Made by a program: the position numbers and the translations under genes
Notes under the pieces: model-generated
Databases searched by the model: none
Seen by the model: the letters and a program-made list of their open reading frames with translations, nothing else
What the model was told of the DNA's origin: nothing
From: Glycomyces albidus
GTDB lineage: Bacteria; Actinomycetota; Actinomycetes; Mycobacteriales; Micromonosporaceae
Assembly: GCF_009451885.1 (NCBI RefSeq)
Contig: NZ_WIAO01000003.1
Span: 186,001-250,000 of the forward strand
Direction of reading: 5' to 3'
DNA length: 64,000 nt
In this document: positions 1 to 915 of the stretch, piece by piece
Position numbering within the stretch: the stretch's first letter is position 1
Layout: each line of letters starts with the position of its first letter

Positions 1-145
1 CGAGCACGTCTGGCCCGCCCTCGACACCGGCGACATCAAACCGGTCGTCACCACTCGCCTCCCGCTCACCGACGCCGCCGAAGCCCACCGCCTCATGGCC
101 GCCGGAGGCCACTTCGGCAAGATCGTCCTCACCGCGAAGTCCTGA
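1..145 (+). CDS. C-terminal end of an MDR-family (zinc/quinone) oxidoreductase, 5' part outside the window
   Basis: Reading from base 2, the last 47 codons run to a TGA at 143-145. The tail contains LTDAAEAHRLMAAGGHFGKI, the typical end of medium-chain dehydrogenase/quinone oxidoreductase proteins, in which the A-H-x-x-M segment and the G-K-I-V strand close the NAD(P)-binding half. The substrate cannot be told from this piece. After the stop, bases 146-289 contain no convincing gene; a CTCCCAGG/CCTGGGAG pair (147-154 and about 205-212) could form a loose stem, but I would not call it a terminator. Confidence 0.7.
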   Translation, partial: EHVWPALDTGDIKPVVTTRLPLTDAAEAHRLMAAGGHFGKIVLTAKS

Positions 146-289: not shown

Positions 290-336
290 GACGCGCCGCC
301 GCCGGGCCCCGAATCGGGGCCCGGCGGCGGCGCGTC
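290..336 (-). terminator. Perfect 23-bp inverted repeat ending the merR operon
   Basis: Bases 290-312 are exactly the reverse complement of 314-336, with one base between them. The stem is almost entirely G and C. Read on the minus strand it lies 20 bases after the stop of the cysteine-rich peptide gene and is followed by a short T run (GGCGTTT). It fits an intrinsic terminator for the merR transcript. Confidence 0.75.
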
Positions 337-356: not shown

Positions 357-443
357 CTACGTCTCGCAGCAGCCGTGGCAGCAGTCCGCGCCCGCACACT
401 GGCACGCGTCGTCGTTGCAGCAGTTGCAGCACTCGTCGCTCAC
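357..443 (-). CDS. 28-residue cysteine-rich, metallothionein-like peptide coupled to merR
   Basis: Too short for most gene callers. It encodes 28 residues starting [16 protein letters not shown], with ten cysteines (5, 6, 8, 9, 14, 16, 21, 22, 25, 26) and one histidine (23): four CC pairs plus a CxC. The GTG start overlaps the merR stop as GTGA (443-440). A GGAGG sits nine bases upstream, inside the merR 3' end. A perfect hairpin follows 20 bases after the stop. The cysteine density and pairing, plus the MerR partner, suggest a metal-chelating peptide similar in role to actinobacterial MymT, though much shorter. That function is inferred; I know of no named family with this exact pattern. A GTG two codons upstream is possible but lies too close to the ribosome site. 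Confidence 0.7.
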
Positions 444-877
444 TCGCACTCACCTCCATCCCGAACCCCGGGCGGACACCAGTTCTCCGGCAGCGGCCCG
501 CCGCCGCAGCCGCCCGACTCGACCGCGCCCAGCATCGCCGTGAGCTGCGACCGCAGTCCCTCCAGCCGCGCGATCTCCGCCGACACCTCCGCGATCCGCC
601 GCTCCAGGTGCGACCCGGCCGGCTCGCACGGGCACGCGCCCGTGTCGCGCACCGACAGCAGGTCGGCGATGTCCGACAGGCGCAGGCCCGCGCGCTGGCA
701 GGCCCGGATGAACCGGGCGCGGTCGAGCTCGGCCGTCCCGTACCGGCGGTACCCGGCGGCGCTGCGCTCGGGCGCGGGGAACAGGCCCTCGCGCTCCCAG
801 TGGCGGATGGCATCGGTGGTCACGCCCGCCGCCTCGGCGAGCCGGCCCACGGTCAACGGTGCTGTCGCGGTCGTCAT
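440..877 (-). CDS. MerR-family heavy-metal-responsive transcriptional regulator
   Basis: 145 residues. The N-terminal winged helix-turn-helix is recognisable ([20 protein letters not shown], then G-L-F-P-A-P-x-R and GYRRY), followed by a dimerisation helix at about 88-115. Cysteines lie at 60, 82, 84, 124, 134 and 144. The C82-P-C84 segment and the C-terminal cysteines fall where ZntR- and CueR-like proteins bind metal. MerR proteins of this kind untwist their own promoter when metal binds. The ATG at 877 was chosen because a -10 box ends six bases before it and an operator dyad lies just behind; the gene would be leaderless. It is translationally coupled to the cysteine-rich peptide by a four-base overlap. 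The metal (zinc, copper or other) cannot be read from the sequence. Confidence 0.9.
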
Positions 878-883
878 GCACCG

Positions 884-915
884 ACCGTAAACCCTGGTGC
901 CGGGACCAAGGTCAA
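884..915 (-). promoter_or_regulatory. MerR-type promoter with long spacer and operator dyad
   Basis: On the minus strand, TTGACC (915-910) is followed after 20 bases by TACGGT (889-884), or after 19 bases by TTACGG. The spacer region holds an imperfect dyad, ACCTTGGT (912-905) and ACCAGGGT (898-891), with one mismatch. Over-long 19-20 bp spacers carrying a dyad are the hallmark of MerR-controlled promoters. The -10 box ends six bases before the merR ATG, so the mRNA should be leaderless. Confidence 0.75.

Follow-up and report, generated by a model that had tools for sequence, protein, structure and literature searches.

A clade of metal-type MerR regulators in the Actinomycetota carries cysteine-rich micropeptides, encoded directly behind the regulator gene by reading frames of a size that gene calling tends to pass over. 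The case analysed here lies in a 64,000-nucleotide stretch of Glycomyces albidus DNA (contig NZ_WIAO01000003.1, positions 186,001 to 250,000), the whole of which is referred to as the window. A sequence-only reading of this DNA had proposed that a ten-cysteine peptide encoded there buffers the metal sensed by its own MerR; that proposal appears plausible, and it has been strengthened by the comparison with related genomes. We consider it likely that merR and the micropeptide gene would together constitute a two-gene, self-regulated operon of sensor plus buffer.

The micropeptide gene and its regulator

The micropeptide gene (357 to 443, minus strand) comprises 28 codons and a stop, begins with GTG and ends with TAG, and its translation contains ten cysteines in the layout CC-x-CC ... 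C-x-C ... CC-xx-CC, in agreement with the CC pairs and CxC noted from the sequence alone. The start overlaps the TGA of merR as GTGA, and a GGAGG ribosome-binding site (453 to 457, minus strand) lies nine nucleotides 5' of the GTG; both features had been claimed previously, and both are borne out by the coordinates of the two frames (443 to 357 and 877 to 440) and of the site itself (457 to 453). A longer peptide of 30 residues, begun from a GTG at 449, is possible; in the Glycomyces alignment, the start codon of relatives coincides with or adjoins that of the 28-residue form. Searches of Pfam and NCBIfam returned no family match for the micropeptide or for eight relatives of 22 to 30 residues, queries this short having little power in such searches.

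Twenty nucleotides past the micropeptide stop begins an inverted repeat of two perfect 23-nucleotide arms separated by a 1-nucleotide spacer (290 to 336, minus strand), which forms a hairpin (z of -9.0) equalled in stability by none of 200 shuffled sequences. This had been read as a terminator: the perfect arms and the stable fold stood, but the U-run expected of a terminator is absent, and for that reason the hairpin is presumed to end the merR-peptide transcript, as a U-less intrinsic terminator. An Rfam scan gave sub-threshold matches alone, every one of them on the hairpin region. Beyond the hairpin and outside the operon lies the C-terminus of a convergent oxidoreductase (2 to 145, plus strand), which we take to be of the alcohol dehydrogenase/quinone oxidoreductase type. 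The convergent oxidoreductase end is found within 900 nucleotides of the micropeptide in 14 of the 15 aligned Glycomyces loci, the fifteenth of which stops at a contig end. Past the hairpin, at 220 to 290 on the minus strand, an intergenic element beginning GCGAATCGGGCATTCGCAGGCGCCCCCGG is kept in several Glycomyces loci, and the window's genome holds one more exact copy together with one that has three mismatches in the 23-nucleotide core.

The regulator encoded upstream (440 to 877, minus strand) has 145 residues, with cysteines in a C82-P-C84 motif and at C124 and C134. It scores above the Pfam cut-offs for PF13411, PF00376 and PF09278 (MerR helix-turn-helix and MerR-DNA-bind domains), its nearest solved relatives are MerR and CadR, and its C84, where the dimerisation helix begins, aligns with C82 of MerR and C77 of CadR. 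The NCBIfam equivalog cut-offs are missed for mercuric MerR (79.6 bits against 150.85), ZntR (75 against 143), CadR-PbrR (74.6 against 151.45) and CueR (61.9 against 147.4). Judged by its domains, its cysteines and its promoter, the protein would belong to the metal-sensing branch of the family, of the MerR/ZntR/CadR type.

The promoter/operator of merR (884 to 915, minus strand) has the MerR-type arrangement TTGACC-N20-TAC[C/G]GT as recognised from sequence, with a -35 element TTGACC (915 to 910), a -10 element TACGGT (889 to 884) and a 20-bp spacer that encloses the central dyad ttggtcccggcaccaggg (909 to 892). It fits the consensus at 22 of 32 positions, whereas the best fit in random sequence averaged 15.2 and reached at most 19 in 740 trials. 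The -10 element ends 6 nucleotides ahead of the merR ATG. Across loci the same order recurs, with TTGACC-TTGGAGTGCACTCCAAGG-TCTACCGT or a variant thereof followed after 6 to 8 nucleotides by the merR start, and given so short a distance merR is probably leaderless. Scored peptide-coupled loci reach 22 to 32 of the 32 positions, as compared with a mean of 15.6 for control MerR loci (the best of which reach 22, 21 and 19).

A strict form of the operator pattern found no site in the window's own genome; a looser form found sites in 18 of the 22 Glycomyces genomes, including the merR operator in all 17 that have merR. A second kind of operator site is present in nine Glycomyces genomes (eight with merR, and G099). 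Eight Glycomyces genomes (G000:C2:78025-78053, which is L245, and L246 to L252) have a TTGGAGTGCACTCCA-type operator facing a small conserved gene for a membrane protein, and in the genome of the window a merR paralogue lies next to such an operator, divergent to the membrane-protein gene; at the ninth site of the second kind (L239), the frame inspected held no membrane-protein ORF. Sites of the second kind were not counted as targets.

Conservation and selection within Glycomyces

The 22 Glycomyces genomes compared lie within a draw of 200 genomes from the family. The window merR shares 73 to 91% identity with 15 named Glycomyces loci, an ortholog is present in 17 of the 22 genomes, and all 17 orthologs have a cysteine-rich ORF at the merR stop, one of them truncated. 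The micropeptide is matched at E ≤ 0.007 in 15 genomes, and since one of these matches (G166) ends early, after the CxC, there are 14 full-length copies, in which all ten cysteines, D11, G18, G24 and E27 are invariant. Four genomes that have merR and no match to the 28-mer encode peptides of 15 to 18 residues beginning on the merR stop codon (MNEECCPCCGPGCCG, MNDETCCPCDPGCCG, MSDDCCEDCCPECCE and MSDDCCEDPGCCGSGCCD), and an intact peptide, full or short, is present in 18 of the 22 genomes. G128 and G139 keep the micropeptide with no merR ortholog. Neither gene was found in G099, G135 and G160, where a short form unaccompanied by merR would escape these searches, which suggests that the system is dispensable in those three.

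The micropeptide frame is under purifying selection. Among the 14 full-length copies, TGC and TGT vary silently in three of the ten cysteine columns, and the frame itself gives a pS of 0.33, a pN of 0.093 and a pN/pS of 0.29, with a median dN/dS of 0.23 over 88 of 91 pairs; the other two frames give pN/pS values of 1.20 and 1.57. In the third frame, ten pairs failed and a stop is present in four of the 14 sequences. The earlier claim that the ORF is a real gene is supported by the recurrence of its frame, its ten cysteines and its coupling in other Glycomyces, as well as by the rarity of such ORFs in shuffled sequence (below).

Two Glycomyces species depart from the usual layout. In Glycomyces lechevalierae (L081/L040) the micropeptide gene is cut past the CxC, at the onset of a copy of the GCGAATCGGGCATTCGCAGGCGCCCCCGG element, perhaps by recombination between repeats. 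In Glycomyces xiaoerkulensis (L056/L090), unlike other Glycomyces, a same-strand peptidase-like frame starts about 110 nucleotides past the micropeptide and ahead of the convergent oxidoreductase, and the locus has no significant hairpin. The 28-residue query also returned matches in ten genomes of other genera (E of 0.04 to 7) and in G099 (E of 0.58), which proved on inspection to be unrelated frames, and a 28-residue profile run over 397 genomes of the order gave matches confined to Glycomyces (eight genomes). As a result, the MerR was used as the bait for a wider search.

Distribution across the Actinomycetota

With merR as bait, a search of 250 genomes of the family returned 32 genomes from 10 genera at E ≤ 1e-30. 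A cysteine-rich micro-ORF lies near the end of merR in 13 of the 13 loci so returned from other genera, and three further other-genus loci also have one (MTDLINLSCCEDDCPPDCCD, MRYDECGCGCGCGCGCG and MTCPCCEGPCDCC); at L175 merR contains an in-frame stop, and the cysteine ORF lies further downstream. Five more strong matches (E < 1e-58), belonging to four additional families, came from the class search (394 genomes). The ORF is present at L183, L184 and L185 and also at L186, where it follows a C-A-C variant of the MerR, and at L182 the peptide is fused in frame onto the MerR C-terminus. A further 12 loci emerged when 296 genomes of the phylum were searched (E ≤ 1e-42), and 11 of them encode a C-P-C-G-H-T MerR; the promoter fits at 25 to 30 of the 32 positions in 11 and at 20 in L226, and eight of the 12 carry an ORF under the rule given below, with tandem peptides in three of these. 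A renewed search of one family (22 genomes) found nothing new.

Some of these loci are unusual in what accompanies the regulator. At L218, L222 and L224, two unlike cysteine micropeptides stand in tandem behind each MerR, one type having the recurring motif CPCCGCPCGDCGG. L219 pairs a C-P-C MerR and the same promoter with a thioredoxin-like gene (CxxC, with a CC further on) in place of the micropeptide, L221 has a 19-mer with three cysteines behind its C-P-C MerR, and nothing comparable to the micropeptide was found behind that of L220. At L226 a divergent C-P-C MerR is followed by a 98-residue protein with cysteine-rich ends, for which the family matches fall below cut-off.

The plasmid search covered 4696 records, and the five matches of at least 60% identity were examined. 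Two Rhodococcus plasmids carry the peptide MHDCCEDPMCPPELCGCGC; the micropeptide is covered by no feature in the gene table of pGA1, a table that is incomplete by its own description. One M. abscessus plasmid and two Streptomyces plasmids (two lineages) have a divergent P-type ATPase beside the same type of MerR, and no cysteine ORF was found in the two ATPase plasmid sequences scanned (L211 and L213). On the merR side of these, the dyad is kept and the -35 and -10 elements are not (25 of 32 positions in L211 and 20 in L213), and in L211 the dyad, in the opposite reading (TTGACTCTGGAGTGCACTCCAAGTTCTA), faces the ATPase. The ATPase of the M. abscessus plasmid passes the NCBIfam cut-offs for heavy-metal, cadmium-family and, narrowly, copper-family transporters, the cadmium model scoring higher than the copper model. 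Three of the plasmid MerRs lack C134, the last C-terminal cysteine of the window MerR, and one of the three is accompanied by the peptide.

For the count, a coupled ORF was defined as one of 10 to 60 codons that starts between -45 and +120 nucleotides of the merR stop and has at least four cysteines making up at least 20% of its residues. Such an ORF is present in 40 of 49 C-P-C MerR loci of the Actinomycetota and in none of 88 other MerR loci (0/65 and 0/23), these control MerRs being more distant than the C-P-C set. The 23 are the 24 from the class search minus L202, which was unreadable; weaker class-search matches had no locus. Dinucleotide-shuffled downstream sequence yielded a coupled ORF in 5 of 1960 trials. 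The nine misses comprise the truncated gene of L081, the broken merR of L175, the fusion of L182, the ATPase loci L211 and L213, and L219, L220, L221 and L226, and three loci found after the count, outside the 49, also carry the ORF. In a tree of 137 MerRs, a single branch (support 99/96) splits the 49 C-P-C proteins from the 88 controls, and over the whole tree the label for presence of the coupled ORF needs eight changes. Because 16 related Glycomyces loci are among the 49, they do not represent 49 independent events.

The 40 auto-called peptides are 11 to 29 residues long with 4 to 10 cysteines, and their composition is 36% cysteine, 13% aspartate, 11% glycine, 9% glutamate, 8% proline and 0.2% tyrosine, with no tryptophan or phenylalanine in any of them. 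As the automatic call picks the start giving the highest share of cysteine, some peptides are called slightly short; L212, called with four cysteines, has six from a likelier start. A Shine-Dalgarno sequence (typically GGAGGTGA) lies within 30 nucleotides of 38 of the 40 ORFs, and the other two (L185 and L212), for which the automatic call chose internal starts, have one at their likelier starts. Hairpins with z below -2 follow in 20 of the 40 loci, and as 12 of these are Glycomyces, the strong hairpin is mainly a trait of that genus.

Small cysteine ORFs had been expected behind C-P-C MerR genes of related genomes, and they do occur well outside the genus. The related expectation, that the positions of the cysteines and the frame would be preserved, held in part: the coupling and the high cysteine content are kept, but number and spacing vary outside the 28-residue group, where little besides cysteine richness is retained. 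This pattern is better fitted by a thiol buffer than by a fixed fold, and the ten cysteines in 28 residues, with CC and CxC motifs, are of the size and cysteine content of a metallothionein.

Discussion

In the operon that we favour, MerR would sit on the dyad between the -35 and -10 elements of its own promoter and hold that promoter shut, until a soft metal binds C84 together with the C-terminal cysteines. The metal-bound regulator would then twist the over-long 20-bp spacer, switching on the merR-peptide message. From this message merR would be translated from its leaderless start, while the peptide, with a Shine-Dalgarno sequence close to perfect and a start that overlaps the merR stop or lies near it, should be made in excess over MerR. 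Its thiolates would wrap metal ions, free metal would fall until MerR releases its own, and the outcome would be a closed negative-feedback loop, with a gene-encoded peptide some 11 to 30 residues long serving in effect as a metallothionein. The sequences show the conservation of the gene, its coupling, the architecture of the promoter, the association across the clade and the purifying selection; for the merR-peptide system we infer induction, translation and metal binding, as well as which metal is involved and in what stoichiometry. A detoxifying or buffering effector fits with the plasmid ATPase, with the fusion, with cysteines kept in no fixed sequence and with the lack of any other partner gene in Glycomyces; against it may be set the lack of a family match, the variable cysteine spacing, the three of 22 Glycomyces in which neither gene was found, the nine C-P-C loci that have no such ORF under the rule above and the missing C134 in three plasmid MerRs.

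The alignment of C84 with C82 of MerR and C77 of CadR, and the higher cadmium than copper score of the plasmid ATPase, argue that the sensed metal is quite probably zinc, cadmium, lead or mercury rather than copper. The corresponding residue of CueR and GolS is Ser77, whose change to cysteine adds a response to mercury, zinc, cadmium and lead (PMC7911910). The ATPase, which passes the general, cadmium and copper cut-offs, leans to cadmium and is compatible with copper. The parallel with MymT and copper that had been drawn from the sequence is weak, since the MerR has cysteine, not serine, at the position that tells sensors of divalent metals apart from those of Cu(I)/Au(I), and the peptide is without a family match.

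Could the frame be non-functional, having arisen by chance in the GC-rich sequence that follows merR? The failure to find either gene in three of the 22 Glycomyces genomes would be in keeping with this, yet frame-specific purifying selection, the association with one clade of regulators (40/49 against 0/88) and the recurring Shine-Dalgarno sequence leave it a negligible probability. A very improbable reading as well is that of a cysteine-responsive attenuator, a leader ORF that senses cysteine supply by ribosome stalling. The high cysteine content and downstream hairpin would suit such a leader, polycysteine regulatory short ORFs exist in mycobacteria (as cited in PMC9031893 and PMC9094748), and in G. 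xiaoerkulensis a same-strand peptidase-like frame follows about 110 nucleotides on with no significant hairpin. However, the ORF sits behind merR rather than ahead of a regulated gene, the convergent oxidoreductase end within 900 nucleotides in 14 of 15 Glycomyces loci mostly leaves little room for an attenuated gene, positions other than cysteine are conserved too, and in one genome the peptide is fused to MerR.

The same fusion (L182), the tight coupling and the clade-wide tie to a single MerR type lend themselves to another reading, in which the peptide is a detached sensor tail or co-regulator whose target is MerR itself, which it would supply with metal or strip of metal in the manner of a metallochaperone or MerD-like protein. 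We regard this as unlikely, although less so than the other alternatives, for G128 and G139 have the peptide and no merR ortholog, the peptide drifts in sequence while merR stays alignable, unlike what would be expected of a docking partner, and the strong Shine-Dalgarno sequence suggests an excess of peptide over MerR. Finally, CC pairs readily form disulfides, and copper-chelating modified peptides (bufferins) are described in the available literature, such that an oxidant scavenger, a cysteine store or the precursor of a modified peptide might be imagined. Such a thiol redox or other sulfur role is improbable, only slightly less so than attenuation, in view of the coupling to a metal-type MerR with metal-site cysteines and a MerR-type promoter, on which protein the SoxR model scores lower than the MerR model (46.5 against 79.6 bits).

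Several known systems resemble the proposed sensor-plus-buffer operon in part. The bacterial metallothioneins SmtA, PmtA and NmtA have about 55 residues, and MymT is a copper-binding protein of 53 residues under a CsoR-type regulator. SmtA, PmtA and NmtA are likewise small, cysteine-rich and under a metal sensor. SmtA and NmtA, however, are governed by SmtB/ArsR-type repressors, the type to which the cyanobacterial sensors belong, whereas here the micropeptide follows a merR with its own promoter, and the SmtA cluster has a zinc finger, whereas the present ORFs of about 11 to 30 residues have no detectable homology. MymT is also actinobacterial, small and cysteine-rich, but is a copper protein, while the MerR here resembles a divalent-metal sensor. 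In the CadR-zrd system of Pseudomonas aeruginosa, a MerR-family sensor induces a small, uncharacterised cysteine metal-binding protein with zinc or cadmium; Zrd, though, has two predicted zinc-ribbon domains and lies at a second site between converging genes, uncoupled from cadR, and autoregulation of cadR is discounted in that study (PMC12301328). The polycysteine leaderless short ORFs of mycobacteria are also cysteine-rich and of the Actinomycetota, but they regulate genes downstream of themselves, whereas the micropeptide follows merR. In Gram-positive merR-first mer operons, merR directly follows the operator that it binds and leads the other genes, as here; they contain mer genes, whereas the micropeptide is the sole partner in this operon. 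In titles and abstract openings of the open-licence literature, no description of MerR-coupled cysteine micropeptides was found.

Somewhat less firmly than for the operon itself, we lean towards the view that these peptides make up a phylum-wide class of what are, to our knowledge, the smallest gene-encoded metallothioneins, reaching down to the 11-mer MSCGCGCGCDC with its five cysteines and each tied to a MerR of its own. Some 600 bp would then hold a minimal closed circuit of metal homeostasis, made up of sensor, promoter and thiol sponge and lacking any transporter or enzyme, selection across genera would keep cysteine density rather than sequence or fold, and the circuit would have been overlooked because its effector is smaller than gene-calling size.

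If true, the Actinomycetota would gain a family of metal-handling microproteins that have gone unannotated, the 'heavy metal-responsive' MerR genes of the C-P-C clade would acquire a target, and the size floor for a gene-encoded metallothionein would be lowered. There would also be a compact circuit for direct tests of the threshold of the sensor and the capacity of the buffer, and the drift of sequence with cysteine content kept would amount to a natural experiment on the minimal sequence of a functional protein.
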